A stretch of DNA of 64,000 bases from Hypericum androsaemum (lineage: Eukaryota > Streptophyta > Magnoliopsida > Malpighiales > Hypericaceae), in the NCBI GenBank assembly GCA_963995505.1, contig OZ023186.1:19413570-19477569 (forward strand), given 5' to 3'. The notes under the pieces were generated by a model. It had not been told where the DNA came from. It made no database searches and saw nothing but the letters and a program-made list of their open reading frames with translations. Within the stretch, counting starts at the first letter, position 1; every line of letters starts with the position of its first letter. The position numbers and the translations under genes are program-made. Positions 6,693 to 57,300 of this stretch are shown here, one piece after another.

Positions 6693-8680
6693 TCAATCCT
6701 CCTTTCGGGCTAGCCTGGCACGATGTCTTAGCTCGGCCCTTTTCCACTTGACGATCAGGTAGCACATGGAGAAGAGGGTGTTTATCTACAAGAGTCGAAG
6801 CAGGTGTCCAGTGAGCAGAATGTTGATAACTAATGAAAGCAGTTAGAAGAGTAGACAACAACCAAGCACTGACCAAAATGGCGATCGCAATGACGAGCAG
6901 AGGTCCCGACCAAAGTATTGAGAGGAAAAGACCGTTGGGATCAAAATAATTCTGGCCGGCAAAGCTCCTCCAGTTTTCACCCAGTGCTCGATTAAGCCTC
7001 TCCGCGAAGAATACACCAGCCACTACAAGAGACCACAGACTACATTAGATGTAGAATCAAGTTGATGCATTCATGTTACTATCTTGCAAAGGTTAATCTT
7101 TTCAGCAGCCAGAATGACATGCGGTTCAGCAAGTGGACTGCCTAAGCTACATTTTAAGACGATGTGGCTAAACAACGGATGCTCTATAACTCAACAAGCT
7201 TAGGTCTCAAGAACTGAAAGTTAGAAATGAGAAAGAGCATCGAATTACTATATAACAAAAATGACACTATGCATTCTCAGCTCGAAAATTGGATCTCCAG
7301 TTAGACAATGGAACCTCCAAAGCAGCATGCAATATCAGCTTCTAAATGTTGTTCCATGCTCATTCAGTTCCCAACATCACGAGAGAAAAAATCCACTGAA
7401 AATATAGCTACAACAAATCTCTATGCATGAGTTTCATCACATGTAAACTTTGGGCAAGTCTACGAACATTGAGGACATCTCCCACCTATATACTTATGGG
7501 ACATCTTCCGTTATTGATGACCATCGACAGCATAAAAAAAGAAAGCTGAAAGGTGTAATACACTAGTGAATTGACAAACAATTACAATTTGCCAATCTTC
7601 GCACTTCTAAGAAATTGAGGAACCTTCAAAATAAAATGTGCCAATGAGAGAAGCAGAAACCAAAAGATTTTGCGAAAGGGGGAGAAAATTGTTCATAGCT
7701 GCAGATGTTGCATACAAATATCAGTTGGCCATTACTAAGACAACAAAGCATTCATGCAACAGGGTGAAGAAGATTCCCCGTTATTACACACGTTTGGTCA
7801 AGTGTCAATCAGTTCAAATCCATCGCTGCAAAACTGATACCAACCCGGATCCTGAGTTCTCATTAATGAAGAGTGAAAGATCCTCTAACGGATCCACTTC
7901 TCTACTTAAGTTGAGCTCGCACTAGAACTTCGAAATAGTAAAGAATATAAAGGACTCGTTGCTTCCACTAATGAAAACGACCTACATTGTCCTATATCGT
8001 TAATCTTTATTTCGACCCCACTAATCAGAAGCACACAATCTATCACTGCATGACCAGATTTGCAACATTCTCCACTCCGAGCAAATATCAAACCAAGAAA
8101 CAAGCAAGAGCCAGCTTCACAGGCTCCAAAGAAATGAAAAGTTCATCAATATAGATTCTGGAATAGGCTCGCAAATTGCGTAAAAATCCGATCTTTAAAT
8201 TCACTCCCCACAAAAACACGTCGAAAGATCCAGGCAGAGTCAAAGAACACCATCAATTCATCAGTAAAACAAAATAGGAAAGGACTTACAAGCACAAAGG
8301 AACAAGAAGAACTGGAAGTTGACATGTTTCCTGGAGAGGATCACCACAACGAGAAACACCATATAGAATCCCATTAGCCCCATCAACCACGGTTCCTGCC
8401 TCCCCAAAACCAAAGGCAACATTTCATGTTAGATCAACGGGTAAGAGAGTTGTTTTAGTTTGACTAGAGATCTCGAGTTCGAGCCACCGAAGATAAGAGA
8501 GTTGGGAGGAAAGTTCCCTTCTTTAGGGTTTGGAGGTACCTTCCAGTCGACGGCGTGGAAGAAGCCCATGAAATTTTCGTAGGCGGGTCGGAAGCCGGAC
8601 CGGAGCTCCGAGGAGAGCTTCTGGACGAGATCCGACATCTGATCCAAGTGCTCCTCCATCGCTGTCCTCAGCTCTTCCAT
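6693..8680 (-). CDS. TMEM18 family nuclear-envelope membrane protein
   Basis: Four exons on the minus strand: 8680-8540, 8395-8290, 7022-6874 and 6785-6693. Phases agree and give 162 residues. The start is the ATG at 8680; the longer open frame begins with a TTG. The protein has an N-terminal amphipathic helix, then EPWLMGLMGFYMVFLVVVIL (membrane span 1), a second span around HVNFQFFLFLCALAGVFFAE, the family signature NYFDPNGLF followed by span 3, and a basic C-terminus (KWKRAELRHRARLARKED). In animals TMEM18 is a three-span inner nuclear membrane protein with a basic DNA-binding tail; a plant role is not established to my knowledge. No damage is seen. Confidence 0.92.
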
Positions 8681-10326
8681 TGTCTGGGCCCCACTCAACC
8701 CTGGTCAACGTGGTCGTGGCGGCGGTTACTCGCGGCTCCTTCCGGTAGAGGGAAATTAGACGGAGGGGGGAGAGAGAGTGGGGATTCTTCGATTAAAGCG
8801 AAAGAAACTACGAGACACAGAGAGACGGGTCTGCGCACATTGTCGAAACGAGTTGGTTCCGGAACCGATAACTTTTATGGTTCGGAATCGACCCGGTTCG
8901 ACTCAGATTCTGGATTTTAATGATATTATTTATCTTATTCTTTATTCAGAATGTTGATTATGGTTAAACAGCTTGGAATATTTGACAATTGCAGTGATGT
9001 GGGCCCTTCTAAGTGGTCTTATGGGCCTCTGGGCTTCCCTGGCTTGGGCCCTGTAAATAGGCTTTAGATTTACTTAGTATTATTGTGAATTTATTTTTCT
9101 TTCTTCTTTTTTTATTATCCTCAAATAATAATTTTGGTCATCATTGAACTGATATTATTGATTATTACTAGATATACAATAAATCTTTGGTAGTTTTTTT
9201 CTTTCTTTTTTCATGTAACAAATTTCAGTAATTGTGAATATATTTGGGTCTTTTTTGTTTAACAATTACCAGGATTGGTAAAAGTCCACTTACATACCCT
9301 GAGATTTCAACCTTTGACACACCAGTACTCTGTAGTTTTAATTTATCTCAGAAGTTTAATCTAATTATCAACCAAGTGATATTTGCTTAACTATAGTTAG
9401 ATTAATACATATTGGCATTCACGTCATTTGTACTACCACATGCTCCGCCACGTCATCCCATACACTACTAAGACAATGTCAAAGAGAATTTTTTAGCAAC
9501 AGCTGTGATATACGTCGAGCACTAATATCCTCTATTCACCCGAACAAACATCGAGATTCTCAAGTTCCAATATAAATTACGCATATACGTCGAGCTTTAA
9601 CGAAAAATACAACGTATAAGAGAACCGGAGCTAAAGTTGAGATTACCAGAACTTTCACGTGGATGCAATAACTCCCCGAACCCCTCGAACTTCTTCTCCG
9701 TTCAACTCTTTGTTTGCCTCGGCCTCAAACTTCCCGTCCCTTCAAATATCCGGAAAGAAGATGTATTAGCACCATATAAAACAAGAAGAGAGATCGAAAA
9801 GAGGCACTTACCAAAAAGAAATCGAAAAAGGAGGCAAGCGATAGGCGCACAAAAGGTGAAATCAATTTGATTACCAGAGAAGGAGGGAGTCAATTTGGTT
9901 ACGGGAACATTTTGGGTTAAACCAAAACTTCAGTAGGTATGCAGGAGCTAGAACATATCAGTTAGAGGGATCAATTATATTAAATATCTGTTTGTTGTTG
10001 AATAATTGGTATTTTTTTGGTTTATACTATATTGGAGCCGGGTGACACATTCGAAAGGTGACAAAATTCTCCTAACACTTAGTATTTAACAATGTTGAAA
10101 ACTCGAACTCGAGACTTCGGTTGATCTCAGCGCTTTTAGTGCTTGTTGGATAATTTTTTTTTTGAGGGTCTTGGATGAATAATTTGTAAGTTGCACTAAT
10201 TAGATGATTTATTTTATAGTTATGGATTAATTTGAAAAAACATGAAGAAGTTATGGATTAATTTGTAAATAGTGGCGGGGCAATTGCATCCCATACTAAA
10301 ACGTAGCTCCGCCCTCTTTCCTGTAG
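8681..10326. other. Spacer with relic of the AGP/TIC20 duplicated block
   Basis: 8905-8975 resembles 15995-16050, and 8999-9200 resembles 16975-17130 (the last codons and 3' flank of the arabinogalactan gene). 9900-9950 matches the TIC20 exon-1 donor region at 19570-19610, and 10200-10326 matches 19970-20055. So this spacer is the decayed partner of the 16-20.4 kb block: the AGP body and TIC20 exon 1 are missing and unrelated AT-rich sequence lies between. Confidence 0.6.
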
Positions 10327-36797: not shown

Positions 36798-38495
36798 TGT
36801 CACGACCCGAGACCGAGACAATCGCCACGCAACAGAGTTGCACAAGGCCAATTCTACTCTCTTTAAAAGCCTATAAAAATCTATCCTTCCATTCTCAAAC
36901 CCAGCCCATTTGTTAACTTGAAATGATCTTCCATATTTCCCGAAAAACAACGTTGCGAATTTGGGTGAGTTTCGCTACTCAATAAAGTTGTCCATACTTC
37001 CAATCGGAGGCTAGGCCTAAGCATTTTCAAAACTTTTGTTAGTTCAAACATCATACCTAAACAGTAACCAATACCGAACAATACCGAACATAACAGATTA
37101 ATATTAAAACAAGCCAGCTGCCTATTTCATTCACATCATACGGCAAGACTCAACTCAAAGCTCTCACTGAACGTGAACAACCAACAAACCATATATAACA
37201 TGTGTATGCAAATGTGACTCAATTATGTAGCGAATAATGATGAATGAAGACAAGAACTCCGGAGCCCTCCTAATGAGGCTATGTCATCGTTTTACCCCCA
37301 ACGACAGGGTCCTGGCACGTAACCCTGCCGTTATCGGGACCATCATATCACCCCCAATGGTAGGGTCCTGGCGTATTAATCCCCCGCCGTTATAGGGTCC
37401 AGACCTATTAATAACCTCACTAGGACCTACATGATTCAGACAATACAGAATACAATCCGCAGAATAGAACAAAACTCAATGCAGAACATAATCCCAGAAT
37501 CTCGCAATCCAACAACAATACCGAACACAACATAAACTCAGAATCTCAATACAGAAGAAGACAACATTGCAGAATAGAATCACCGTACAACTCAGAACCA
37601 AAACTTCTGAACATCCACAACCACCAACTCAACGCACAATTCAATTAATAAGTTAATGACACGAACCTGACAAAATCAATCCGTACACTTAAACTCAAGC
37701 CATCAAACTATTTAACAGAGGTCGTTTAATCCATCCAGCCGAGACCAATACCATGCACATAGCCAGTACTCTATCTCCCTATTCTCATCCGTTTAATTAA
37801 ATCACCAAACAATTCAATACTCAACCGCATGAATCAGAATCGGTAGAACCAAGAAATAGTACACAGTTCCCATCGCACATTGGAATCAATTAGTTTAATA
37901 ATCAATAAATTAAACTAGTACATGGCAACACCATAAAATCAATGCACAGTGGAATCAATAAATCATCATCGCACAAGTCACTTAATAACAATCAGAATAA
38001 GGACATCAAAATAGATTCTTTAATTGCTCGACCCAAATATAAAATTGAATTTAAACCAAAAATACCTCGAAGTAAGAACAACTTACCCGACTATTTAATT
38101 ACAATCCCTAGCTAGCGAAGATGTTTGATCTCTATTATTTCTTTCTTTAGTTGACCCTTCAATGCCCTACTCTTCATAGCCTCCAAGTTCTCCAGTGTAA
38201 GGCGAAAAAGTATTTAGCGGGGGCAGGAGAATTAGAAGGAGGAAATGTTTAACATTGAACGACACATGATAGAGAGAGGTGTCTAATTCTAATTCTACAT
38301 AGATAACTAACGACTCCTCCCACCCCACCTCCCTCAGAATTAGGACAGTTAGAGAATGAGGAAGACCGGGAGTTTGTTACGATCATGATTCCTTAGTGGC
38401 TGGCAATTTACCTAAAGGTCATTGGTTAACTAACTCGTTGTTACTTGCCTTAATTTGTTCCAAGTATTTTTATCCCTAAAATTTCGGGTTTTACA
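36798..38495 (-). repeat. Complete 3' LTR of the gypsy shell (1698 bp)
   Basis: 37173-38132 is repeated almost unchanged at 42154-43118, and 38133-38495 is repeated at 53271-53634. Confidence 0.85.
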
Positions 38496-38916
38496 TCCTT
38501 TCCCTCTCAAAAGAAGTTTGGTCCCCAAACTTCAACCATTGTTAGACGACCTCATGTACATCTTTTCTTCTTTCCTAACCTTGTCGCTACTAACGTGTTC
38601 TACGACTCTTACATTACTAGATGGTTGATACTAGATACTAGATGGTTGATACTAGATACTAGATGGTTGCTTTTACAGCATTAAGCTTGACTTAAGTCGT
38701 TGTTCATGCTTAAGGTAATCTAATGCGCTAGCTACTAATATCCCTTAATTCAGATCCTTTTTTTTTCAAGCAACTAGATGGGTTGTGGCTCTAATTATTT
38801 TAGCTTCATATATAGAACTTCCTGGATCTATATGACATACAAATATTTTTTTTTAAAGGTATAATCAATATTACTACGAAAAAAGTAACACCATGAGAAT
38901 CAAAAGTATAGATTTT

Positions 38917-38953
<37 letters not shown>

Positions 38954-39833
38954 CACCTAAGGCGAAGCACCTAGAAACTCCTAAGACGAGTTCCTGAACC
39001 CAAAAACGTACGGTGATCAAACTCCCTAAAAGTGGTAGAAAACTTGCACCCTTCAAAACGAAATGGATGCGGCTTTAATATCCATATAAATCTACTCCTT
39101 GACACACCTTTAGTTTTACCATAATGACAACTTATCATTTCAAGAAAAGAAAAATTAAATACACAAGTAAGAGTTTTTTTTTCTTTTTCGTATAAACCTA
39201 CCTAAAAGACAATTAAGTGAAGAACCAAATTTTATTATTCCTTTAATGTAGTAAGTGAATATCACATATATTGTTATGTCTAAAACCATTGACAATCATA
39301 AGCACAATAGAAGCTAGTGACAATAGTCCTATATTCCCAAATTCCTCTTTAATGTAAAAACCCAACGCTAAATACAATAAACACATATCAATACGAAACT
39401 TCATAGCAGTTACTACCACTAACACATATCAATACGAAACTTCATAACAGTTACTATAAGCATACTTCCGGATGCACAATAGAAACAATGTTATTGTTTA
39501 TCACTAATTACAACAGTAAGAAGAAGATTAAAAAAAGAATTACAAGGCGACAACAATTGCCTTGCTAATAGGAGTAAAGCAAAGCAAGATCCTCTAAAAT
39601 AATAGGAACCAAAGAACTACAGTTACCTATGGGGTAATCTGGTACCTATGGGATTATCTCTTTCATGTACACTTTGGTAAACTTTTTGGTAAGAATACAA
39701 TACTTTACTTATCAAAACAAAAATTACTTATCAAAACAAAAATTACCTATGCGATGAAATATATCCTACATGAATGGAGGAGCTAATGCTCTCCTGAAGT
39801 AGAACAAAGTCCTAGAACCATCTAGAAAACCTT
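38496..39833. other. Residual gypsy interior and simple repeats
   Basis: Contains the polypurine tract, a 21-bp tandem repeat (38615-38669, about 2.6 copies), a (TA)16 run at 38921-38952, and a 42-bp direct repeat around 39379-39460. No coding potential is recognised. Confidence 0.6.
38921..38952. repeat. (TA)16 microsatellite
   Basis: An uninterrupted TA run, likely to vary in length between individuals. Confidence 0.9.
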
Positions 39834-42156
39834 TGTTAGGAATTCAGCAACCAAGAGAACAAAAACGCGCAAAGAACACAGAACAAGAGAATTACGTGGT
39901 TCGGCCTAATGCCTACTTCCACGGAGAGAAAGGAGAACTTTTATTGATGAGTTTCCGAGCCACAAAGCCATACAAAACCTTAGGGTAACATGTCTTTATA
40001 TAGAGACAAACCCTTGGTGTACAAGTAACCTATCTAGGTCTAATTAGGAGTCCAAAATCTAGTCAGAATAGGAATAGGAATAGGAAATAAGTCTTTCCTA
40101 TTTCTCGCCATCCCAACAATCCCCACCTTGGCGAGAAATCATCTCGTGGAAGAACCATGAAGCTCCACCCGAACTTCAACAAACTCCACCTTGACAAAAT
40201 ACCGCCCCATGAAGAACCATGAGATCTTGCAAAACCAATCCAACTCCACCGACTCCATCTCGGACCATAGATAACTGCATCAATAAGACCATCTCAACTT
40301 TCTCTTCACCTTTTGTTCAATCACTTGGAGCTAGCCCCCAAGCTCGAGCTTCTGAGCTTGCTTGGCCTATTCTCTCCAACCTCCATCGAACTCCAACTAG
40401 CAAGTCCACCTGCTGAAGCAAACTTGTGACCAATAGATGCGCTCTCTATTTTTCGGTCAACCCCATGCTCCGCAACCTCGAACTGCTTCTCCGCTGGACC
40501 TTCTTGCCTCATACCAATGCTACATGCCATAGCATACAAAGGGCAACCTTTTGTTCCACCAAGTAGAACCCTCGACATGCCACGAACTCCACCGTTCGGC
40601 CTTGAGTGAGATACCTGATTCACCCGTGGTGCTACCAACGGCTTCGTATTCCTCATGCAAAATCTACCAAACACTTTTGACGTGCACGTCCTTTTAGACA
40701 ACCATAGAGAGAACTTGCTAACTTTGTCTTTGCGAATCTCAACTCTACTCAAACCATTCATGTCAAGCTTTTGCTCCATCACACAAGAGCTTTTCTCCCC
40801 TCTATCAGAACCCAACGAGGTGACTCCACCTACAACCGTGTTCCCCACTAACCTGTAGGTGTTTCTAGCATTCCTTTCACCCTTCATCACCACCACAGCA
40901 TCCTTCTCCACTTCCATTAGCCCGCCTACAATATTATAGTTGTACCCACTATAATCCAAGGCTCCTAACGAGATCAAATTCCTCTCCAACTTTGGAACAT
41001 GCCTAACTCCACACAATTTTCTCTCAACACCATCCCACATCTTAATTCGGATATCACCTATGCCAGCAATTCTACAAGTAGAACCATCACCCATAGTCAC
41101 CATACCTGAATCAACGAACTTGTAGGTGTCGAACCACCCTCTCTTGGGCGTCATGTGGAAAGAGCAAGCGCTATCCAAAATCCAGGAAACAGAATGCTTT
41201 GGACTTGACAAAACAGAAAGGAGATCACCATCCGACCCGTCCGAATGTGAGGCCACATTCACGGAACCTGATCTTTTTTTCTCGCGATCCCGAGTTCTTC
41301 TTGGATAATCCTTCTTCACGTGCCCTTTTTCTCCGCACTCGAAGCAATTTCCTTTGAACCTCCTTGACCACGACTTGGATCCCTTCCCGTCTTTTGCTCC
41401 ACTACGATTACCATGGCTACCCCTCACAACCAGCCCTTCCGCTTGTTCATCGCCATTTTTTCTTCTTTGATGAAACCCTAGCAGAGCACTTGTGATATCT
41501 TCCAACACCAGGGACTCCTTCCCCCAAGTTAGAGTTGTAACCAAATTTTCGTAGAAGCCAGGTAAAGAATTCAGCAGCAACAATGCCTTGTCTTCTTCCT
41601 CGAACTTCACATCAACCTTTCTCAAGTCACTCACAAGTTGACTGAAACCATTAATGTGTTGGCTCAAATCCGAGCCCTCATTCATCTTGAGCCCGTACAA
41701 TCTTTGCTTAAGATAAAGCTTGTTCGACAAAGACTTAGACATATACCTTGCCTCCAATTTCTTCCATACCTCAGCTGGTGACTCCTCATCCATGACGTGA
41801 TACATCACATCATCCGCCAAGCACAAGTGAATTGTCGCCACCGCCTTGGCCCCCATCTCCTTCCACTCTTGCTCCTCCATCTTTTCGGGCTTCTTCTCCG
41901 AGAGCGCGATGACCATCCCTTGTTGCACGAGGAGATCCTTGACACGCCTTTGCCATAACCCGAAATTCGAAGAACCATCGAATTTCACAAGAGCAAACTT
42001 CGCGCCGTCCGTCATCCTCCAACCCAAGCTCTTGATACCAATTGTTAAGAATTCAGCAACTAGAGAACAAGATCGCACAAAGAACACGGAACAAGAGAAT
42101 TACGTGGTTCGGCCTAATGCCTACATCCACGGGGAGAAAGGAGAACTTTTATTGAA
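39834..42156 (-). mobile_element. Ty1/copia derivative with gag and protease only
   Basis: The left (3') LTR at 39834-40118 is complete (285 bp, TGTTAGG...CCCAACA), with a purine-rich tract just inside. The right (5') LTR at 42043-42156 keeps only its inner 114 bp. The primer site (TTGGTATCAAGAGC on the minus strand) abuts it. Integrase, RT and RNase H are absent. The right LTR is fused to the gypsy LTR at 42153-42155 with a TGA shared by both partners, consistent with a microhomology-mediated deletion. Confidence 0.86.
40321..42015 (-). CDS. Copia gag-protease protein with unusual C-terminal extension
   Basis: 564 residues, ATG at 42015 close to the primer-binding site. Gag begins MTDGAKFALVKFDGSSNFGLW; UBN2-type gag core follows (KLYLKQRLYGLKMNEGSDL, GFSQLVSDLRKV); zinc knuckle CFECGEKGHVKKD (final Cys is Tyr, YPRR); protease WILDSACSFHMTP and GAG-pre-integrase-like RLVGNTVVG. 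After about residue 400 the sequence no longer matches copia pol and ends without integrase. Such gag-only elements can be mobilised in trans. The altered knuckle suggests decay. Confidence 0.82.
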   Translation of the reverse strand: MTDGAKFALVKFDGSSNFGLWQRRVKDLLVQQGMVIALSEKKPEKMEEQEWKEMGAKAVATIHLCLADDVMYHVMDEESPAEVWKKLEARYMSKSLSNKLYLKQRLYGLKMNEGSDLSQHINGFSQLVSDLRKVDVKFEEEDKALLLLNSLPGFYENLVTTLTWGKESLVLEDITSALLGFHQRRKNGDEQAEGLVVRGSHGNRSGAKDGKGSKSWSRRFKGNCFECGEKGHVKKDYPRRTRDREKKRSGSVNVASHSDGSDGDLLSVLSSPKHSVSWILDSACSFHMTPKRGWFDTYKFVDSGMVTMGDGSTCRIAGIGDIRIKMWDGVERKLCGVRHVPKLERNLISLGALDYSGYNYNIVGGLMEVEKDAVVVMKGERNARNTYRLVGNTVVGGVTSLGSDRGEKSSCVMEQKLDMNGLSRVEIRKDKVSKFSLWLSKRTCTSKVFGRFCMRNTKPLVAPRVNQVSHSRPNGGVRGMSRVLLGGTKGCPLYAMACSIGMRQEGPAEKQFEVAEHGVDRKIESASIGHKFASAGGLASWSSMEVGENRPSKLRSSSLGASSK

Positions 42157-43126
42157 CAACCACCAAACCATATATAATATGTGTATGCAAATGTGACTCA
42201 ATTATGCAGCGAATAATGATGAATGAAGACAAGAACTCCGGAGCCCTCCTAATGAGGCTATGTCATCGTTTTACCCCCAAGGACAGGGTCCTGGCACGTA
42301 ACCCCGCCGTTATCGGGACCATCCTGTCACCCCCAATGGTAGGGTCCTGGCGTATTAACCCCCCGCCGTTATAGGGTCCAGACCTATTAATAACCTCACT
42401 AGGACCTACATGATTCAGACAATACAGAATACAATCCGCAGAATAGAACAAAACTCAATGCAGAACATAATCCCAGAATCTCGCAATCCAACAACAATAC
42501 CGAACACAACATAAACTCAGAATCTCAATACAGAAGAAGACAACATTGCAGAATAGAATCACCGTACAACTCAGAACCAAAACTTCTGAACATCCACAAC
42601 CACCAACTCAACGCACAATTCAATTAATAAGTTAATGACACGAACCTGACAAAATCAATCCGTACACTTAAACTCAAGCCATCAAACTATTTAACAGAGG
42701 TCGTTTAATCCATCCAGCCGAGACCAATTCCATGCACATAGCCAGTACTCTATCTCCCTATTCTCATCCGTTTAATTAAATCACCAAACAATTCAATACT
42801 CAACCGCATGAATCAGAATCGGTAGAACCAAGAAATAGTACACAGTTCCCATCGCACATTGGAATCAATTAGTTTAATAATCAATAAATTAAACTAGTAC
42901 ATGGCAACACCATAAAATCAATGCACAGTGGAATCAATAAATCATCATCGCACAAGTCACTTAATAACAATCAGAATAAGGACATCAAAATAGATTCTTT
43001 AATTGCTCGACCCAAATATAAAATTGAATTTAAACCAAAAGCACCTCGAATTGAAAGTAAGAACAACTTACCCAACTATTTAATTACAATCCCTAGCTAG
43101 CGAAGATGTTTGATCTCTATTATTTC
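42154..43126 (-). repeat. Gypsy 5' LTR, truncated left portion
   Basis: Matches 37173-38140 closely. It lacks the LTR-terminal 375 bp (equivalent to 36798-37172), lost in the same deletion that truncated the copia LTR. It continues at 53263 on the other side of the Mutator-like element. Confidence 0.85.
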
Positions 43127-43357
43127 GGGTTTTTTTTCTGAATGGTGTTACTATTCACCCTTTTTTGTGAAAAAAGCGTCCGATTTGAAAGTATTGCGGG
43201 GACGGTGTCCACGTGGTACGGACGCCGAAAAAAGTCGGATCTTGGACCAAGATCCGACTTTTTTTGTCGGATGACCAAGATCCGACTTTTTTAGTCGGAT
43301 GATATATCCGACTAAAAAAGTCGGATCTTGGTCCAAGATCCGACCGTTTTTCTCGGA
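43127..43357 (+). repeat. Left terminal inverted repeat of the Mutator-like element
   Basis: Pairs with 53033-53262 on the opposite strand. It includes the outermost part of the GTCGGATCTTGG palindrome array. Confidence 0.85.
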
Positions 43358-43484
43358 TCTTGGTCGATAGGCCATATCCGAAATCTGAATAGGAGATTTC
43401 GGATATGACCAAGATCCGACATTTTTTGTCGAATTTATCATATTGGTCCAAGATCCGACTTTTTTGGTCGGATCTTGGTCGATC
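43228..43484. repeat. Left subterminal palindrome array (GTCGGATCTTGG/CCAAGATCCGAC)
   Basis: Around eight head-to-head and head-to-tail occurrences of GTCGGATCTTGG or its complement, separated by T- or A-rich spacers. The mirror array lies at 52893-53160. Such clustered subterminal motifs are plausible transposase-binding sites. Confidence 0.8.
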
Positions 43485-43492
43485 ATATTGCC

Positions 43493-43578
43493 TATATAAT
43501 GGATACCTCGCAGAAGCCTTTTGTCATCCATACGAAGACGTCCTGCATACCACCATAGAAGACCCTGCCCAAAACCAG
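43493..43578 (+). promoter_or_regulatory. Probable TATA box and non-coding first exon of the transposase gene
   Basis: CCTATATAATGG (TATA at 43493-43500) lies directly inside the palindrome array. About 30 bp on, a leader exon would begin and end at ACCAG|GTAAAT (43578/43579). The matching acceptor TTGTAG is at 44147-44152, eight bases before the transposase ATG. Confidence 0.55.
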
Positions 43579-43605
43579 GTAAATTAATTTACTTTAATAT
43601 TTTGG

Positions 43606-43835
43606 TATATATGTAGAGTTTGTTCATTAATTAAAAATAATTAGTATATTTTAGCTTTGAAATTATTAATTGTTTCTATTTTTTGAGTGTGATATCTGAT
43701 TGTTTAAAATTTTGTGGGTGTATATATGTAGAGTTTGTTCATTAATTAAAAATAATTAGTATATGTTAGCTTTTGAAATTATTAATTCCTTATATTTTTT
43801 GAGTGTGATATCTGATTGTTTAAAATTTTGTGGGT
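43606..43835. repeat. 115-bp tandem duplication in the leader intron
   Basis: TATATATGTAGAGTTTGTTC begins both units (43606 and 43721), with few differences through the GTGGGTGT end. Confidence 0.85.
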
Positions 43836-43869
43836 GTGCGAATTTTATAAACTGACCAACCCCAATGGC

Positions 43870-43946
43870 CAGACCGGTTTAATGAGTCGGAATGGTCGGG
43901 TCGGTCAGACCGGTCGGGTCGGTCGGACCGGTCCGACCGGTCAGAT
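43870..43946. repeat. Left ACCGGTC/GGTCGG subterminal cluster
   Basis: Repeated GACCGGT and GGTCGG motifs in the leader intron; the counterpart is at 52070-52232 near the other end. Confidence 0.75.
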
Positions 43947-44160
43947 TGTGAATTTTTTCTTGGTAAATTCCGGATGGTCGAGTACAAAAAGTGACCACCC
44001 TGCCAGTCCGATTAAATTTCATCTGGTTCTTAAGGTGGTCTCGGACCAAAAAATTGATGGAGAAGAATGTATGTTTATATGATATTTTCGTTAATATAAA
44101 TTATGTTTTGTGTTGCTAATATAGAATTGCATACTGTTTTCTTTTGTTGTAGTATTCATA

Positions 44161-46836
44161 ATGGCTAACCGGGTTATAAGAATAAAGTTGAAATACGATG
44201 GAGTAATTTTCAACAACAATGAAACCGGTTTTGATTACCAAGGTGGTAGGAAAGAGAAGTTGAAGTTTCATGCAGCATTTGTTAGATACAATATCTTGGG
44301 GAAAAAAGTTAACGAAAAGATCCCAATAGGTCCAAATGAAGAATTTGGGCCATTGATATTTAGATGTCCATTTGGAAGAGGACAATTTGGTCCAATGTTT
44401 ATTAACGACGATGAAGATGTTAGGATAATGCTGGAGACCATGATTAACTTCTTTGGACCAATGGTGAAGGAGATTAAGCTTACAATCATTGTGGAAAAGA
44501 GGGTTAATAATTACAACCCGTTTGTCGTTGAAGCTGGTACGTCAACGGGGATGGATGTTGCTCATGAACCAATATTTGATTGGTTTGAAAATGATCCTAG
44601 AGAGACGGGTCCATATGCCACATACAATTTTGATCGTGAAGACGAAGCAGAAGAAGTAGAAGACGAAGACGAAGCAGAAGAAGACGAAAATGAAGCAGAA
44701 GAAGACGAAGATGAAGAAGAAGTAGTAGAAGAAGAGGAACAACAATACCGAGAACAACAATACGGTGAACTCGCTCTAACTGATCCCGGTGAACAATCAT
44801 CGATGACTGTTTATGGTGAAGAATGGGATTGCGACCGAGCAATAGATGGAAGTTGTTCTGGTTTGTTGAAAGAGGGTACGATTTGGAAGAGCAAATTTGA
44901 TGCAAAGAGGGAGATCGAGGCGTTCGTAATGAACGATGGGCGTGAGTTTGTCCGAAAAGAAACAAGGCCAGAAACTTTTTCTGTGAAGTGTAAAAAATGG
45001 GAGACTGATGATTGCAAATGGGAGATCCGTGTCTCACAGGAAAGAAGGGGCACACTTTTCAGTCCATGGAAAATCGTGAAACACACCTACCCACATACCT
45101 GTGGTCGCCTACGAAAGTCGCAGGATCATAAACAACTCACTTCTGCTTTCATTGCACAAATTATTAAGAAACGAGTAGAGGAACAACCAGAAATTCGTGT
45201 GGCCACTTTAAGGTCAGAGATCCACGACCATATGAAGTTTAGACCCTCGTATACGAAGACTTGGTGGGCAAAAGAGAAGGCGTTTCAAGATTTATGGGGG
45301 GATTGGCAAGAATCTTACAATCGCCTTTCGCAATGGTTTGCAGCATGCAAGGCAAATAATCCTGGAACTGTTGTTGAATGGGAATATTATCACACCCTCC
45401 CTGGTTACGTGGAAGCACTAATTCCTGGAACAAAGATCTTTAAGCGAGTTTTTTGGAGCTTCAAGCCTTGCATTGAAGCTTTCAAACATTGCATGCCTGT
45501 CTTGGAGATTGATGGAACGTTCTTGTATGGAAAATACAAGCATGTCCTCCTGATCGCCACTGCAATTGATGGTAATAATGCTATAATTCCAATAGCATTT
45601 GCTCTGGTAGAGGGTGAGAACACGGATAGTTGGCCGTGGTTCATGAAACAAGTCCGGAAGTACGTCACGCCTGGCCGACATGGAATATGTGTTATTTCTG
45701 ATCGACATGCTGGCATATTAAAGGCAATGAATACGGAGTATGGTTGGGGAGAAGACAGTGATACCGCCCATCGATATTGTCTTCGACACGTAGCAAGCAA
45801 TCTTAACAAACACTTCAAAAACGACGCCATGAGGAATGTCATGGAGATTGCAGGTGACATGCACAAATGTTTTGTAGTCTAAAACTATTTTACAAGTTGT
45901 TACTCCACATTTAATATTTTTACTATGTTGGTTGTAGGAATGCAAGCTCAACTGTGGAAGTTGGAAGCTAACATGCGAGAAATATGGAATGTCGACCAGG
46001 AGGTCTTCAACTGGATGTATGAACAGGAATTGCCCAAGTGGAGCTTAGCGTGGGATGGCGGACGCCGATATGGTAACATGACGATAAATTTTGCCGAGTG
46101 CGTAAATATGATCTTCAAAAAAGTTCGTCGTTTACCGGTGACGGCCTTGGTGGCAGAGACATTTAACAAGCTAACCGAATATTTTGAAGAGAGATCAACT
46201 AAGTGTATGAAAGAGAGCTGTACTGGCAAAATATTGATGTCACAGAGGCTCCTAAACAGGTTGGAGCGGTGGGAGGGAAAGGCTAATGTACATAGAGTGC
46301 GAGTTTCTGACAGTACAGTTGGATCGTACGAAGTTCGCACTGGGTACGATATGAGAAGACAAAAGGGGGACAGAAAGCATTCAGTTAATGTTTCCACAGG
46401 ATTTTGTGGCTGCGGCAAATTCCAGGCTTACCACTATCCGTGCTCACATGTGATGGCGTGTTGTACTGAACTTGGCATCGATTACAAGATATTTGTGGAT
46501 AAGTATTATCGCCTGGAAACCACACAAGCTTGCTACCAACTGAAGTTTGTTCCTCTGGGAAATCCTAAATATTGGCCGTATCCTGAAGATCCTACGGTTG
46601 TAAGGCTCATTCCAGATGAAAGATTAGCGAGGGGTAGAGGACAGCCACGGAAGCGCATACATAATGAAATGGATACAGTGCCTTTCGTCCGCTGTACGCT
46701 CTGTAAAACAAGGGGTCACACAAAAGCCAATTGTACTAATATAAGAGCAGTTGCGGCGGCAAGAGCGGCTAAAGCAGCTAAAGCGGCAGCTGTATCCGTA
46801 GGGGCAAGTACGAGTAGACGCCGTCGTGGACGTTGA
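44161..46836 (+). CDS. MURA-type Mutator transposase
   Basis: Exons 44161-45853 and 45938-46836 give 863 residues. The N-terminus (RIKLKYDGVIFNN) resembles the PB1-like domain of plant MULE transposases, followed by a long acidic D/E linker (about residues 155-205). The MuDR DNA-binding domain follows (WKSKFDAKREIEAFVM, WEIRVSQ, HTC). The MULE transposase core has LEIDGTFLYGKYKHVLL with the first catalytic Asp, then IPIAFALVEGENTDSW and ICVISDRHAGILKA with the second Asp. The SWIM zinc finger is CGCGKFQAYHYPCSHVMACC and a terminal CCHC knuckle is CTLCKTRGHTKANC. All signature residues I can check are present. It would bind the element ends and catalyse cut-and-paste transposition. Confidence 0.93.
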
Positions 46837-47014
46837 ATTGTAATTAATTTTGAACTGAAAGGATTGTACTTTGTAATATTTTGTGAAACTCTATGTGGGT
46901 TGTGTTGAGTTTCTTTGTAACAGTCTGAAGTTTAAGTTACTCTATCTTAGCAGAATAATGACGCATTACACATTTTATGTATATATTTATTGTCATAATT
47001 GTTCAGGTGTGCCA

Positions 47015-48748
47015 ATGAGGAGAAGTGGCAAAGAGCCAATCGCACATGATGACGAAGAGCCGGAGCATCCTCAAATCGATTGGAATGCTCTATGTGGTTC
47101 TAAGTTTGGGTATATTTTCAAACGATTACAGAGGCCATCCAACGATAGATCAGAAGTCCCTCCTCAGAAACCTACCAAAAGCAACTGTTATTACAAGCTT
47201 GTCAAGCGAGATCCAGAACCGTGGAGTAGAGCCATGGACTTTCTGACAGTTGAAGGTATTCCGTATTTCTATATTGGATCACATAATATTTTTATTAAAT
47301 TTTAATTTATTTTACAGGGATGATGATAGGAACCTGTTTTAAAGGGACAAGTATTCAGAGCTTCAAAAATACCTATAGTGGTACTACAGTTATGTCGGTA
47401 AGAAATTTTACATTATCCTTTAATTTGAGTTAGCATCATAGTCAATTTTATAACAAGTATTTTGTATTTGCTTGTAGATGGTTGTAGAGGTGACCCGTTT
47501 TCAGCGTGTCGGAATTGGCGCACTTGCGACATTAAAGGTACAATTAAAAAAATTTTATTTATTCTTACATATTTATGTTATGTGAGAAAATTTTTAAACT
47601 TTTAATATATTACAGGATTCTACAGGCAGTATTACTGGTACCATAAATGACTCTACCGGTCTTGTTGAAGCTGGATGTGTGTTGTATCTTAAAAATGTGA
47701 GCATATCCTTTTTTTTCTCAATAGTCCCAGATAGTTGTTTACTGATTTTCTGGTTCTTCAACAGGTAAAAGTTGACTCGTCCCCATACCAGAACAACAAA
47801 TTATTTAGCATTACTGAAGAGAACGTGGTCATAGTGTTCAAGAAAAATGGAGAATCTGATGAAGATTCCCAAGAACAAACTCGTCCAGCACCATCCTATG
47901 ATGGTCGTCGTCCTTATCCTCCAGCACCATATCCTAAGGGACGTGGTGCCGATTTGAAGGCACTATATGGCTCAGAGGCCTTTGAGTGGCTCCAAGAACA
48001 AAAGAGGTTAGAGCTGCATAAAAAGGAAGCTGAAGCTAAATCAGCCCTTCGAAGGAAAGCCATACGAGCTGAAGCAGACCGCAAAGCCAATGACATTTTC
48101 AACAATGAACCATGGACAACAGCTATTGAATTTGTTCTATCTCACGGTATTACGAAAATACTTATACATACTTGTTACTTACATTTATGGAGTATCTAAT
48201 TTTTAAATTTTTTAGGTTTGATGTATGGAGCTAACGTTGATGGAGTATCTATTGAGGATGTAAAAACAATCTCTGAAAGCATCACAATTCCACAGGTAAC
48301 ATTTGTACATATATGAAAATTTTGCAATTTGCAAGTAATGTTATTGTTAACTAAGAGACTTGCAGATGGTTCTGTACGTGAAAAAGAAGAAACATGTATA
48401 CGGCAATAGTTTCCGAGCAGTTTTTCAGGTATTATAATATAATATATTATTTATTTCTTAATCATATTTTTTAATTATCAAAGACTTCATATCTATAAAT
48501 TTATGAAGGATCCTACTGGCGAAATCACGGGGAGTTTACAAGACATTGAGAGTACCTACTGTGATGGATGTGTGTTGCTAGTGAAAGATGTAAGCTTATA
48601 TTATCATTACATCGTCGTCAGTAAATTATTTTAATATAATCATTGACCTAATTACGTATTTTTTGAACAGATTTATGTCTCGTATGAAGAAAATCGAATA
48701 CATTTCAGTGTTGATCACGAGAATGTTAAACGAGTTTTCAAGGAATAG
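47015..48748 (+). CDS. Transposon-borne protein with two HROB-like OB-fold modules
   Basis: Nine exons: 47015-47255, 47318-47397, 47478-47537, 47616-47696, 47765-48146, 48216-48295, 48366-48428, 48509-48589, 48671-48748. Phases all fit, giving 381 residues. Two copies of one module use the same exon pattern. Module 1: VVEVTRFQRVGIGALATLKD, STGSITGTINDSTG, VEAGCVLYLKNVKV, FSITEENVVIVF. Module 2: MVLYVKKKKHVYGNSFRAVF, DPTGEITGSLQD, CDGCVLLVKDIYV, IHFSVDHENVKRVF. The DxTGxIxGxI / GxVLxLK / L.IT..NVV pattern is that of the HROB OB-fold family (recombination-associated single-strand-DNA-binding-like proteins). A charged K/E/A-rich helix links them. The start could lie further upstream in a spliced exon. 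A role in repair or end protection during transposition is inference. Confidence 0.8.
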
Positions 48749-49046
48749 TGGCAAATATGTCCCTACCGGGAATTCTGATGAGAATTGTGACAACGTGTTG
48801 AGAAACATAAAGACATTTTTTTTATCTGTTATTTCATATTGTTGTCATCCTATTTTAGTATTGCACTTCTTAGTTTTGTCATGTCGTATTTCCTTATACC
48901 GTACTTTGTTTAATATCTTGACGGCATACTTATCTAGAAAGGTATAACGTTTGAAAAGTTTCGAGAACTAAAACACAAATCATAAAAAAAGTGAAGTTAA
49001 TACAGTCATAAAAGCATCCAACGAATGTCTAGTACAGAAGCATAAA

Positions 49047-51896
49047 CTACTTCTTCTTCTTCTGAGGCTTCTCCTTTTGATGCTTATCTGCGTGAGCATT
49101 CGCCTTCCCCTTTCCCTTTCCAGGCACATTCAGGTGTCCTCCTGTAAAACATCGCACACCAGCCTCTCTAGCTCCCCGATTAGGCTGACGCCGGACCAGA
49201 GGTATTTCTTCATCCTCAAAATCGGTTGGATCGTCAAATGAAGAGTCACCACTACCATGAGTTGTAGTATCACGTGGCGAAGTCCTATTATAAAATATCA
49301 TACAAATTTATCAAAATCAACAAATTATGTTATCAACACAATAAAGCCATACAATCAATTCAAAATTTTTAAATAAAATTCATAATTTACACACACCAAA
49401 TTGTAGAGAACCAACCTCTGTGTAGGTGTCTCAAATAGTTGGGATGTCTGTACACCAGACCGGGTCAAACCAAAACTGGACTGCGTGTCGGACGTATGAG
49501 CCCCAGTTTGGGGCCAACCAAATATATTTTCCCTGAATAATGGATGAGCAGCGGAGGGGGCGACGCCGAAACCCGATCTGGAAGGGCCCAGTCCGTAAGA
49601 AAACGGCTGCACAGACCTAGCTGCTGTTGTACCGTCTCCAATGAGAACACCCCTAATAACAAACCCAAAAATTTATATAATAATGAAATCAAAACAATTG
49701 AACATATTGTAATAAAATTCATAATTAATACCACACATTAAGATAAACAAATACCTCTGCCCAGGGGGAGTAAACAGCTGGGAATGCGGCACCCCAGTGT
49801 GGGCTAGGCTGTAACTCGAGTGCTGGTGGGACGGCTGGGAAGCGGAGCCAGGGGTGCCAAAATCTGTGTGCTGGGAGAATGGATGAGAGGCGGAGGTATC
49901 CATGCTGAGAGACGTCACTGTGTTTGCTGGAATCTGCGATCTCGACCGATAATCTTCCCAGACCATGGGCTCCACTTGATAACCAGGTACGAGCTCAGGC
50001 CGGGGTATTGGTTGCCGCTTGTTGAAAAGGGTGGTTTTGCATCTCACGACAGATACCCTCTCTGATTGAGGAAGATCGTATGTCATGTGCTCCGCCAGTC
50101 CCACAGGTGCCTGGCTGTCGCGGAGACCTAGGTACCGTCTTTGCTCGCCGGCGAACCCAAGTGCAATCTGCGACAAATTCTGAATTTCTGAAATGTCTGA
50201 AGACCTGTGGCGTATATGCTCAACAACATCCGCCTACAAATAAAATTTTATTATCATTAGCATTGTGGAACATCGCTATTAAAATTAAAATAGACAACAT
50301 CTTTATTTAACATAGCTAAATTGACTTACACTCATGTGTAACATTGCGCTAGCAGGGCTGATGAATCGCCGAGTAATCTTCCTGTACAAATCCATATATC
50401 CATCATGATAATGGATATACAGCGATGTAGGTACTCCGTGATACACATATCTTGTCCGAAATTCCACCCAGATCTTCACATGGCCTTCGTAAATAGCATT
50501 CCAATTTTGGCCAGCCTGACCCCGACCATCCACCGCACTATGTGTCGCCTCATCGATCTCAGGGCTAGCCGGAATACCCTGGAGTAATCCGAACTGTCGT
50601 AACACCCGATCAGGATAATGCCACTCCACATGTAAAAAGCATATCAACGGGACTCGTGCCAACCATAAGCCACAATCACGATGGCATATTGTCGGGAGAT
50701 TGCTAAGAATCTCGTCGTTATACGGCATCCATACAACCTGTAACAAATGCACACAGTCGTAGCTCGTCCAAATGGTCATGGTTATATGTATGCAACACAG
50801 TATGATTTAAGTCAAAACTATTCATTAAAATTTAATAAACAAATTACTTACATCTGATTCTCTAAGCTCATCCAACCTGCGTCTGTAAACAGATACGGTT
50901 GTTATTTTTTTGCTGGCCGCTCTGTTAAATTTTCCACTCCACTTGCACAGTGACATAAAAATATCACGTCAATTCTATAAGATTAATCAGCGGCTACAGC
51001 GCATTAAGTAATAATTTGTACCTGATGCCCAGTGCTTGCCCAGGTTGTTGCACTGCCGGATTTAACAAAACCGGACGATTTGGGATGATCTGTTCCCAAG
51101 CCCACATACATATTAGCGTCATCGCCCCGGCAATAAGTGAACGTGTCGAGCTTGTGGCTCTACATAAATGGCTGTACGTGTGTGACAAACACGCACTACC
51201 CCAGCTGTAAGAACCAATTGCCTCTACATTCTCTAGAAGTGGCAACCAGTATGTGTTCACCCTGGCATCACTAGACTCGGGAAAAAGAATGCATCCGATA
51301 AGTCGCAATATGTTCGCTCGAACATATCGTTTTACGACCTCATCACCAGTATCAATTGGGATAGTAGCAGGGTCAAAATGGTCCTCGAACCATTTAAGGG
51401 CAATTTGGTTTTTCCAAACCATTCCAGGGGTATCTGCCGGGTTACTGCCAAATAGGCGTACGCAGAACTCGTGCCAATCAGGAGGTGTCTGCAACCCTGT
51501 TACTGGGTGACCATCGATAGGAAGCCCGAACAACACAGCAATGTCCTGAAGAGTAACTGTCATCTCACCCACAGGCATATGGAACGTATGGGTCTCCGGC
51601 CGCCACCGCTCCACCAAGGCTGTAACAAATGCTGTTTCGAGAACGACCCAGCCAATACACCACACATCCCAGAAACCTGCCTCCTTCATATAGGCTATAA
51701 AGGCCTCGTTCTGCACATGAGACACCGTCCATTTCCGTCGGTGTATCTTCAACAATGTGTCCTGATTATCGTTAATCCCTTCACGAACCTCACGGTTCCA
51801 CACGTCCTGAGAACGGTGCACATCCTGGTGCACTAATACCGACGTATCTAAGGGTCCTCCATTCCCTAGAAGATGCCCGTATGGCTGTGCATCCAT
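49047..51896 (-). CDS. Plant mobile domain (PMD) protein of the Mutator-like element
   Basis: Six exons on the minus strand: 51896-51022, 50936-50852, 50737-50330, 50233-49755, 49652-49416, 49284-49047; 773 residues, phases consistent. The N-terminal two thirds is a plant mobile domain: WDVWCIGWVVLETAFVTALV, ERWRPETHTFHMPVGEMTVT, LQDIAVLFGLPIDGHPV, CLSHTYSHLCRAT, LICMWAWEQI, VVWMPYN. This domain is shared by MAIL1/MAIN proteins and by transposon-encoded relatives. The C-terminal third is S/G/Q-rich, built from two related exons each ending LF(E)TPxQR, with a basic KKKK terminus. The gene converges on the OB-fold gene with about 300 bp between stops. Confidence 0.87.
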
Positions 51897-52069
51897 ATCT
51901 AAACAACACAATAGACATATTAGAACATTATATACCAATATATTAACAAACTTAGCAAATCCAACAATGTTAAACATTGAACAATTAGAACATTAATCAA
52001 AAAATTAATTAAAATAGCGTTATTACAGACCATATTACGGTCACATTGTTTAACGGTCAAACCACTCGG

Positions 52070-52232
52070 ACCTTATTTTGGTCAAACTGGCCGGCCGGAC
52101 CATCTTTCGGTCAAACCGGTCGGACCATCTTTCGGTCAAACCGGTCGGACCATTTTTCGGTCAATTTGGTCTGATCAATTTTTTGGCCAGACCGGTCAGA
52201 CCGAAATTTTGGTCGCACCATTCGGACCAAAT
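52070..52232. repeat. Right ACCGGTCGGACC subterminal cluster
   Basis: Five or more repeats of the form CGGTCAAACCGGTCGGACC at about 25-bp spacing, opposite in orientation to the left cluster. They lie just upstream of the PMD gene and so may act as its promoter elements as well. Confidence 0.78.
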
Positions 52233-52426
52233 TTTTTTTAACCAATTATCTATAAATTACAATTAACCAACATCAACAATTAACATCCCTCAAAAATAAA
52301 AAATTATCAACAATTAACCAATTAACTAACAACAACAATTAACCAATTAACTAACATTCACAATTAACTAATTAAAAAATTAACTAATTAAAAAATTTAC
52401 CTAATACGACGTCGGGGGCCGGACCG

Positions 52427-52860
52427 AGAGGCGGACGAGCGGGGAGCGGGGAGCGGGGAGCGGGGGCAGGGAGCGGGGGCGGGGAGCGGGGGCGGGGGCG
52501 GGGAGCGGGGGCGGGGGCGGGGAGCGGGGAGCGGGGGCAAGGAGCGGGGAGCGGGGGCGGCGAGCGGGGAGCGGGGAGCGGGGGGCGGGGGCGGGGGGCG
52601 GGGAGCGGGGAGCGGGGGAGGGGGCGGGGGCGGGGGCGGGGAGCGGGGAGCGGGGGCAAGGAGCGGGGAGCGGGGGCGGCGAGCGGGGAGCGGGGAGCGG
52701 GGGGCGGGGGCGGGGGGCGGGGAGCGGGGGCGGGGGGCGGGGGCGGGGGCGGGGAGCGGGGAGCGGGGAGCGGGGGCGGGGAGCGGGAGCGGGAGCGGGG
52801 AGCGGCGAGCAGGGAGCGGCGAGGCGAGCGGGGAGCGGCGAGGCGAGCGGGACAGACGGG
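52427..52860. repeat. G-rich minisatellite (GGGAGC / GGGGGC units)
   Basis: About 430 bp made almost only of GGGAGCG and GGGGGCG units on the + strand, with a larger internal duplication (52530-52620 resembles 52650-52740). Dense runs of three to five G make G-quadruplexes likely. Open frames over it are artefacts of composition. Confidence 0.9.
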
Positions 52861-52892
52861 AAGGCGATATCGGGGACGGGAGTGTGAGCGAC

Positions 52893-53160
52893 GGAAAAAG
52901 TCGGATTTTGGTGTTTATATGGACCGAAATCCGACTTTTTTTGTTGGATCTTGTTATAGTTGGATCTCGATATCCTTCGGAAATCCACTTTATACCGGAC
53001 CAAGATCCGACAAAAAAAGTCGGATCTTGGTCATCCGACAACGGTCGGATCTTGGACCAAGATCCGACTTTTTTAGTCGGATATATCATCCGAGAAAAAC
53101 GGTCGGATCTTGGTCATCCGACAAAAAAAGTCAGATCTTGGTCCAAGATCCGACTTTTTT
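52893..53160. repeat. Right subterminal palindrome array
   Basis: Mirror of 43228-43484 with the same GTCGGATCTTGG/CCAAGATCCGAC units and similar spacers. Confidence 0.8.
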
Positions 53161-53262
53161 CGGCGTCCGTGCCACGTGGACACCGTCCCCGCAATACTTT
53201 CAAATCGGACGCTTTTTTTCACAAAAAAGGGTGAATAGTAACACCATTCAGAAAAAAAACCC
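53033..53262 (-). repeat. Right terminal inverted repeat of the Mutator-like element
   Basis: Complement of 43127-43357 with only scattered mismatches. Confidence 0.85.
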
Positions 53263-53634
53263 ATTATTTCTTTCTTTAGTTGACCCTTCAATGCCCTACT
53301 CTTCATAGCCTCCAAGTTCTCCAGTGTAAGGCGGAAAAGTATTTAGAGGGGGCAGGGGAATTAGAAGGAGGAAATGTTCAACATTGAACGACACATGATA
53401 GAGAGAGGTGTCTAATTCTAATTCTACATAGATAACTAACGACTCCTCCCACCCCACCTCCCTCAGAATTAGGACAGTTAAGAGTTCCTTTTAAATGAGG
53501 AAGACCGGGAGTTTGTTACGACCATGATTCCTTAGTGGCTGGCAATTTACCTAAAGGTCATTGGTTAACTAACTCGTTGTTACTTGCCTTAATTTGTTCC
53601 AAGTATTTTTATCCATAAAATTTCGGGTTTTACA
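53263..53634 (-). repeat. Gypsy 5' LTR, outer portion
   Basis: Continuation of the LTR interrupted at 43126; matches 38133-38495, with a small insertion near 53480 (AAGAGTTCCTTTTAA). Confidence 0.85.
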
Positions 53635-54394: not shown

Positions 54395-57300
54395 ATGGCG
54401 TCGACGACGAGGGAGAAGCTGATGAGGCAGATAATGGAGAGGAAGAGGAGGACGGTAGAGGCGGTGAAGCAGCAGATCCAGGAGTTCGACCACTACCTTT
54501 CCTCCCTCTGCATCCTCCGTGGCCTCCCTCCTCCTTCCCTTTCCTCTTCCCGTAATCTCCTCGCCTTTTCTTCGTTTTGTTGATTTTCTTCTCGAAGCTG
54601 CTTTCTGTACCTGTAGTTCGTCGCGAGCCCTAGGGTTTACTTGCACAAACGAGCACGGAACTTCTTCGAGGCATTTTTTTTGTTTGCCTATAGCTGAATT
54701 CGTTTAGGATCCGGTGAAGAATTTATTCTTCTTGATAATTTGGTGCTTTTAGGTATTCAATTGTTTTGGCCGAAAATAGGATTTTGCTCGTTATTCTTCT
54801 TGTTGCTTTTCTTCTCGAAGCTGCTTTCTGCACTTGTAGTTCGTCGCGAGCCCTAGGGTTGTCTGGCACAAACGAGGATGGAACTTCTTCGAGTCAGTTT
54901 TTTTGTTTGCCTGGAGCTCAATTTGTTTTGGATCCGGTGATGAATTTTTTCTTCTTGATAATTTGGTGCCTTTAGGTATTCAATTGTTTTGGATGTAAAA
55001 TAGGATTTTGCTAGTTGTTCTTCTTGTTGATTTTCTTCTCAAAGCTGCTTTCTCTTTTTGCTATTCGTCTTGAGCCCTAGCGTTTGTTTCTTCCCTAGAG
55101 CTGAATTTGTCAAGCACACTGTGATGGATGTTGTCTTACTGATAATTTGGCGCTGTTCGGTATCAAATTACTTGGCTGCAAGTAGGATATTGCTCGTTTA
55201 TTTGTGTTCAAGTATGTATAGTTTATGAATTTGAGGATTATTTGGAACTTGATGCTAGTTAATGAATTGCTTGTGGTTACAAGTTGTATCTGATTGTGGA
55301 TTTTTTGTGCCTCGATTTGATTCACTCTTTCCTTGTCGCATGTTGCTGGAATGCGAATTTTTGCAGAGTTGAACAAAGAGGAGCTTATATCAGAGGTTTT
55401 ACTACCTGGTCCATACACTAACCCTTATACTGGTGGTCAGAACTCTTTTCACCAAATGCTTGTCCCCGATGCTCTGTTCCGGGGCGTGGAAGATTCTTCT
55501 TTCAGGGATGTTAGTGCTTTGAATAGAGGTGTTGCTGCAAGCGATAGATTGTCTGTTTCACCACAGCTTCCTGCCGCTGAGTGCGCATTGTATGAGTTTT
55601 CTGGGGCAGGTGGAGCTGCTGCTTCTCCTCGGGAGTGTAGAGATGTCTTGGTCCCTGATAGTCATTCCAAATCATTGGCAAGGATTGAAAGATCCAAGTC
55701 CAGGCAGAAGGCTCTTAAGCTTCGGAATAGTACAAAGGCAGCAAAAACATGCTCACGGGATTTACAAGATGTTCGTGGGAGCCGTGGTCAGATTCTAGAA
55801 GCTCGTACTGACTCCTTGCAGCATGACCATCCCAGTGACCTGAGGTTGGTCAAATCTGTTAGCACAAGTGATAGGATTTGCACAGGAAATGATGAAAACA
55901 TAGCTGGTGGAACTTTGGCTAAAGAGCAATTTGGTGATGAGAGAAGTGCAACATCACAGAGTAGTGACAAAATGAATGATTCTCAGGATGGCGCTGGAAA
56001 CTCGAGTGACTTGCCTTATATTTCAAAAGAAGAACGTGATAGAGAGATGACATACAGATTGAAATATCAGTCTGGATGTGCTGATGCATTATGTGAAACT
56101 GTGAATCATTCTTCTGTTGCGGCAGGTGCAAGTAGTCCGGCAGAAGATATAACAGGTGGCGACTGCAACAAGAAGTCTTCAAATGTAAATTCTGCTCTTC
56201 CAATGAGAAGTTTTGGACTGCCATCCAGTGGCGAGAAGGGAAGCCTTGATATGGAATATGCATGGTCTGGTGACAAGGATTTCATGCGACCCAGATTCTC
56301 TACTCATGAATCATCTCAGCAGCCAGATAATGTTAACCAGCCGGGGAGATGGGCCATACCTTCTCATATCGTGCCTAGTGGAAGTAATGGAGCAAGGATG
56401 ATGACCGGAGACATCAGCATTGAAGGTGGTGATGTTTTCCCTGAGATAATTACAAGAACAAGAAGCTCTTCCCAGCAATCTGATAATACAAGGGAACACT
56501 CAAAGTTGGATTCCTCTTGTAGTTATGACAAAGAAGAATATATTGACAATGTGAAGCACCTGTCCCACAATGGTGGCGATTCCAGAAATAAGAGCAGATC
56601 CGGTGATTTTAACAGAAGTTGCAGGCTGGGGTTACGAACTTCTGTTTTTCAGGGAAGCAAAGGGAGAAATACTTCTTATGAAAATGGATTAGAAAGACCT
56701 AACAGTTTCCATCAGCAACATAGCAGTGCTGGTGCATCTTTGATGGAAAATGGATCTCGTTGTGTCTCACTTGAGGCAAACGCCAGGGAACTGTGGCAGG
56801 CACCTTCGCAAAGTTCGGTTAGAGGAAAAGATGGATACCAGGAAGCCTTAGTTTCTGATTCTAAAGTATCTCTTCAGTTTGATAGCAGGAATATTGTAGA
56901 AAGTGAAAACTGTGATGCAATTCAAGCCGTGACTAAGAGAGATTCAGAAAGGTCGGTTCAAAATGGGGTTACTTCTGGTACTAACTTAACTGGTCCCTGC
57001 CTTGGAGTAGAAATGATAGACACAAAGTCTACCACAAACAGTGTTGTGCTTGTCAATCCCAAGGAGCTTAATTTTGATGATGAAGAAGAGCCAACTTTGA
57101 CGGAGATGGGTGATTCCATTGTGAACAACAGCCAAGACAAGCCTAACTTGTGGATTGAGGACGCTTTGCTGGAGCAGAAGCAACTGTCTAGGGAAACTCA
57201 TAAGGAAGCTAAAGAATCATCTGAAAATGAAGTAGGAAACTGTGCCATTTCTCTAGAACCAGGTACGGGCAAGGCTGACCAACTTGACACTTATTCGTGC

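Follow-up and report, generated by a model that had tools for sequence, protein, structure and literature searches.

A three-gene Mutator-like element of Hypericum androsaemum with transposase, HROB-like and plant mobile domain genes

The window analyzed here, a 64,000-nucleotide stretch of the Hypericum androsaemum genome (assembly GCA_963995505.1, contig OZ023186.1, positions 19,413,570 to 19,477,569, forward strand), contains at 43127-53262 a Mutator-like element (MULE) of 10,136 bp with three multi-exon genes, encoding a transposase, an OB-fold protein related to HROB and a plant mobile domain (PMD) protein. This element is probably a young copy, potentially autonomous, from a high-copy MULE family in which the three genes are inherited as a module, with the protein roles proposed below. 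A functional module had been suggested in a first-pass annotation of the window, and it is supported by the recurrence of the genes, both among sister copies and in two diverged relatives, and by ratios of nonsynonymous to synonymous substitution rates (dN/dS) of 0.25-0.36 between families. Judged from these sequence comparisons, the OB and PMD genes seem to contribute to the element rather than to be carried along by accident, and we infer accessory functions for their products.

The presence of a three-gene MULE with precise ends is confirmed and lies far beyond chance. Exact 8-bp copies of ATTATTTC flank the element, as annotated (Table 1), a length within the 8-11 bp range of MULE target duplications (PMC6446971). 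The terminal inverted repeats are identical over 49 bp and then 94% alike up to ~220 bp, slightly less than the ~230 bp first estimated. The element interrupts an LTR retrotransposon that occupies window positions 37174-42452 and continues to ~53634, with LTRs of ~1.32 kb that are 1.4% apart. Once its flanks are joined, the interrupted LTR aligns with its sister over 1338 columns with 18 mismatches and 16 gap columns and no scar at the insertion site; the empty target site, expected at about 38132, was located in the sister LTR at 38134-38141. The two LTRs show 18 differences over ~1322 aligned positions and, with the commonly used plant substitution rate of 1.3e-8 per site and year, the insertion would be younger than roughly half a million years. 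Inside both ends lie arrays of a subterminal motif that is family-specific, AAGATCCGAC in the window element and CAGATCGAA in a sister family. The 21-base terminal motif had no match in the viral and prokaryote contigs searched.

No stop or frameshift interrupts the three gene models, and all their introns are GT-AG; the annotated lengths of 863 and 381 residues were recovered, and the third protein measures 768 residues instead of 773. The first gene encodes a MULE-type DDE transposase (PF10551, E 9.9e-19) with a SWIM domain (1.3e-5). By eye, D451 and D514 are invariant among six aligned proteins, the third acidic residue (in NFAEC) is common to the four relatives with a residue there, and a CCHC knuckle is present. 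A protein-database search with this transposase returned 34 plant and metagenome proteins, listed without genomic context. The OB gene lies directly downstream on the same strand, and its product belongs to the HROB family (PF15072, E 6.3e-16, 58.6 bits for a cut-off of 30.8). Each half matches on its own, the first with 33.3 bits (E 4.9e-8) and the second with 29.1 bits (E 9.5e-7), just under the Pfam cut-off. This protein found no match among PDB sequences, nor among 2337 protein-database candidates at E 0.001. Host HROB/MCM8IP is described with one OB-fold and an otherwise largely disordered chain (PMC11675949), whereas the element's protein has two OB domains in 381 residues.

The PMD gene (PF10536, E 3.6e-48) is on the minus strand, the antisense position frequent in PMD-bearing MULEs. 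Its product matches 856 plant and metagenome proteins (the best 120 of 856 were considered), again without genomic context. Compared with PDB sequences, it gave four chance-level matches only (best E 0.15); when the predicted structure of its domain was compared instead, a single PDB entry matched significantly, VANC21, with 10% identity over aligned residues. Two C-terminal exons of the gene (window 49416-50233) end in the similar peptides GVPHSQLFTPPGQR and GVQTSQLFETPTQR, which suggests an exon duplication.

Sister copies were sought in the single 385-Mb genome, in 29 contigs, that contains the window. Transposase exon 2 has 143 matches genome-wide, the first 111 of which are at least 89% identical, and merging two pieces at C19:8912707 leaves 142 transposase places. 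At 108 of them (93 of the first 111), the OB linker exon follows on the same strand at a distance of up to 6 kb, a count made from 150 OB matches after removal of six second pieces of the same gene. By Pfam matches, a PMD gene is paired with at least 51 of the 142 places; this is a lower bound, since 117 of 858 candidates were scored and the full-length PMD genes of some fetched copies, L013 and L014 among them, are absent from the list. The 117 scored matches divide into 45 near a listed transposase and OB gene, 7 near OB only, 5 near transposase only and 60 near neither. The last group includes a cluster of eight genes on contig C8, a PMD-only element (L048) and L047, an element that has the other genes too and is counted there because it is too diverged for the transposase and OB lists. 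The clustered genes (L001-L008; G000 contig C8, 16.59-16.67 Mb) are single-frame PMD genes with full-length domain matches, open frames of 717-864 aa and no stops, and MULE-arm-like DNA occurs close to L007 (78% identity).

Of the 20 fetched copies, which follow the window copy in rank, 14 hold all three genes at full length and in the same order. The other six (L021, L024, L026, L028, L029, L030) have internal deletions that remove parts of OB, PMD or both. Among 15 aligned full copies, window included, three are free of stops, frameshifts and splice losses in all three genes; splice losses in the 14 aligned sisters amount to two sites, both in the PMD gene (L017, L018). The subterminal motif is kept in 16 of 16 sister copies, and a G-rich array on the right-arm side of the PMD gene is covered to at least 96% in 18 of the 20 fetched copies. 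Target duplications in 16 sister copies whose ends were examined are exact 8-bp repeats in six (five by script, L017 by eye), 9 bp in L012, and off by a single mismatched or additional base in L015, L018 and L020; none was found in L019 and L027, and the right flank falls outside the fetched sequence for L011, L016, L023 and L025. The co-occurrence of the three genes, which the annotation proposed as a check, is borne out within this genome.

Among the 15 copies, mean divergence is 0.6-0.8% in coding sequences and 0.6-0.9% in introns. Shared nonsynonymous (N) and synonymous (S) variants number 9N/2S plus one stop in the transposase, 3N/1S in OB and 4N/8S plus one stop in PMD, and singletons number 53N/24S, 35N/13S and 72N/27S, respectively, near the neutral expectation. 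This burst is too young and star-like for a selection test, and between-family dN/dS was therefore used instead, with two diverged relatives. L047 (~8.5 kb) has inverted repeats of its own, is flanked by an exact 8-bp duplication and keeps the gene order and orientation of the window element; its transposase is 56% identical over 768 codons and 65% in the core stretch, its OB gene retains the first half only (52% over the first 88 residues) and its PMD protein is 60% identical over residues 49-292. L049 carries a transposase, the second half of OB and PMD, and no inverted repeats of at least 40 bp were found within its 10 kb. L048 (G000:C5:18156500-18166499, 5959-9492), ~3.5 kb long, has inverted repeats, an exact 8-bp duplication GTAGGCTG and L047-type subterminal motifs; it is a deletion derivative of the L047 family, with 90% identity. 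Only PMD remains between its ends, indicating that PMD can move in an element that lacks the transposase.

Maximum-likelihood dN/dS between the window element and L047 or L049 is 0.28-0.36 for all three genes, and between L047 and L049 it is 0.25-0.29 for transposase and PMD, the OB halves sharing five codons only. Likelihood-ratio statistics versus a dN/dS of 1 range from 21 to 105, and 20 neutrally simulated genes passed through the same extraction pipeline gave 0.63-1.34. Purifying selection thus acts on all three genes between families, with OB and PMD about as constrained as the transposase. Since both relatives contain stops, they have probably undergone some neutral decay, and the constraint on living elements is probably stronger. 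The annotation had stated that its reading would fail if most copies lacked OB and PMD or if these genes evolved neutrally; neither the 14 complete copies nor the dN/dS values show such a picture.

These data also bear on a one-off capture, in which a single master element picked up OB and PMD in Pack-MULE style and its burst copied them without function. Near-neutral variants within the burst and the frequency of internal deletions (6 of 20) agree with such a capture, but both genes recur in two diverged relatives with a dN/dS like that of the transposase, which counts strongly against it, and we regard it as very improbable. Several points nevertheless weigh against an inherited functional module. 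In addition to the near-neutral burst, 34 of the 142 transposase places are without a listed OB exon, and L047 and L049 both contain stops and each hold half of the OB protein, so that two OB domains may not be needed. As for the proteins, helical models can score middling Z values by chance, a fold apparently shared by PMD and VANC21 in itself demonstrates no function, and the subterminal arrays might be bound by the transposase instead.

If the three proteins do work as an inherited module, the transposase would cut and insert the element. The PMD protein would bind the element's own repeats, with the subterminal arrays as candidate sites, and might keep the element transcribable or help to assemble its ends. 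The HROB-like protein would bind single strands in the DNA intermediates of excision or insertion and could couple these to host gap repair (RPA, MCM8-9), favouring copy gain. It is doubtful that the main role of PMD is that of a cofactor in end binding or transposition rather than that of an anti-silencing factor: the motif arrays are subterminal at both ends, where transposition complexes assemble, and the predicted DNA-binding fold would suit either role, yet the protein matched in fold, VANC21, has a known anti-silencing role (PMC5735166) and anti-silencing was proposed for MULE-borne PMDs by Ikeda et al. (PMC5418596). Somewhat more room, still short of preference, is left for an OB protein that helps transposition directly, as MURB does, and not through MCM8-9. 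According to PMC9168764, MuDR insertion depends crucially on MURB, the OB gene sits directly behind the transposase on its strand, and single-domain OB forms exist in L047 and L049; on the other hand, the matches of both OB domains are to the HROB family, and human HROB activates MCM8-9 (PMC7290032).

Antisense PMD genes are already established in plant MULEs and are not new: they are reported for the groups MUDR, MUDRAVI2, MDR, MULE-Monocots and MULE-Solanaceae_1 (Dupeyron et al. 2019, PMC6446971). PMC9289625 attributes the connection of PMDs with MULEs to Babu et al. 2006. The annotation knew of no described MULE with this trio; for the HROB-type gene, no paper linking HROB or OB-fold proteins with MULEs was found in the open-licence PMC literature. 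The PMD-bearing groups resemble the window element in their MULE transposase with SWIM, long inverted repeats and antisense PMD; they differ in that the table rows for these groups in PMC6446971 name no OB or HROB gene and that their duplication is mostly 9 bp instead of 8. The row for MULE-Solanaceae_1 lists "unknown ORF and PMD (antisens)", and this unknown ORF may be the same gene as OB. MuDR of maize, composed of mudrA and mudrB, likewise pairs a transposase with a helper gene, but in opposite orientation (PMC9168764). VANDAL/Hiun elements are also three-gene MULEs, carrying VANA, VANB and VANC, and the accessory VANC21, a DNA-binding anti-silencing protein (PMC5735166), is the closest solved fold to the modelled PMD domain; long inverted repeats are however largely absent from VANDALs, some members having repeats (PMC6446971). 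With its repeats of ~220 bp, the window element departs in this respect from the VANDALs, which are characterized by absent or short degenerate inverted repeats. Its intact transposase and full-length extra genes do not fit a Pack-MULE, an element that has no transposase and carries fragments of host genes.

To our knowledge, MULE PMD genes have been known for years without a function, and the VANC21 fold match suggests a concrete, testable one that may join the plant silencing research on MAIN/MAIL1 with that on VANC. As a tentative and rather unlikely extension, PMD and VANC might form one MULE DNA-binding superfamily, in which PMD would read the subterminal code (AAGATCCGAC, or CAGATCGAA in the sister family) and thereby reverse silencing or assemble ends, while the HROB-like protein would recruit MCM8-9 so that excision gaps are refilled and copies gained. 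If so, host silencing proteins, MAIN and MAIL1 among them, would be domesticated kin of a transposon anti-silencing factor. It would be unusual for a DNA transposon to have its own repair-coupling factor, in the form of a conserved relative of an MCM8-9 activator, and such a case would have implications for copy gain by cut-and-paste elements. Comparative and functional tests are feasible, as a single genome offers many young copies along with diverged relatives.

Table 1. Coordinates in the window of the element, its genes and its insertion site
Feature	Coordinates	Strand	Basis
Uninterrupted sister LTR	37174-38495		
Empty target site, single copy, in sister LTR	38134-38141	.	LTR comparison
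Left target-site duplication ATTATTTC	43119-43126	.	flank comparison
Left terminal inverted repeat, outer 49 bp identical with right arm	43127-43348	+	
Left subterminal array, 8 copies of AAGATCCGAC, both strands	43234-43476	.	
Transposase gene, 863 aa (exons 44161-45853, 45938-46836)	44161-46836	+	gene model, Pfam
HROB-like OB-fold gene, 9 exons, 381 aa, two OB domains	47015-48748	+	gene model, Pfam
PMD gene, 6 exons, 768 aa (51896-51022, 50921-50852, 50737-50330, 50233-49755, 49652-49416, 49284-49047)	49047-51896	-	
G-rich simple-repeat array, between PMD gene and right arm, upstream of PMD gene	52420-52895	.	
Right subterminal array, 6 copies of AAGATCCGAC, both strands	53002-53154	.	
Right terminal inverted repeat	53040-53262	-	
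Right target-site duplication ATTATTTC	53263-53270	.	flank comparison

In the surroundings of the element, a 115-bp stretch directly preceding the second LTR of the host retrotransposon recurs at 39833-39947 (92%). Finally, window positions 54550-55169 contain imperfect direct repeats with a spacing of ~223 bp, in two or three units that are 72-91% alike.
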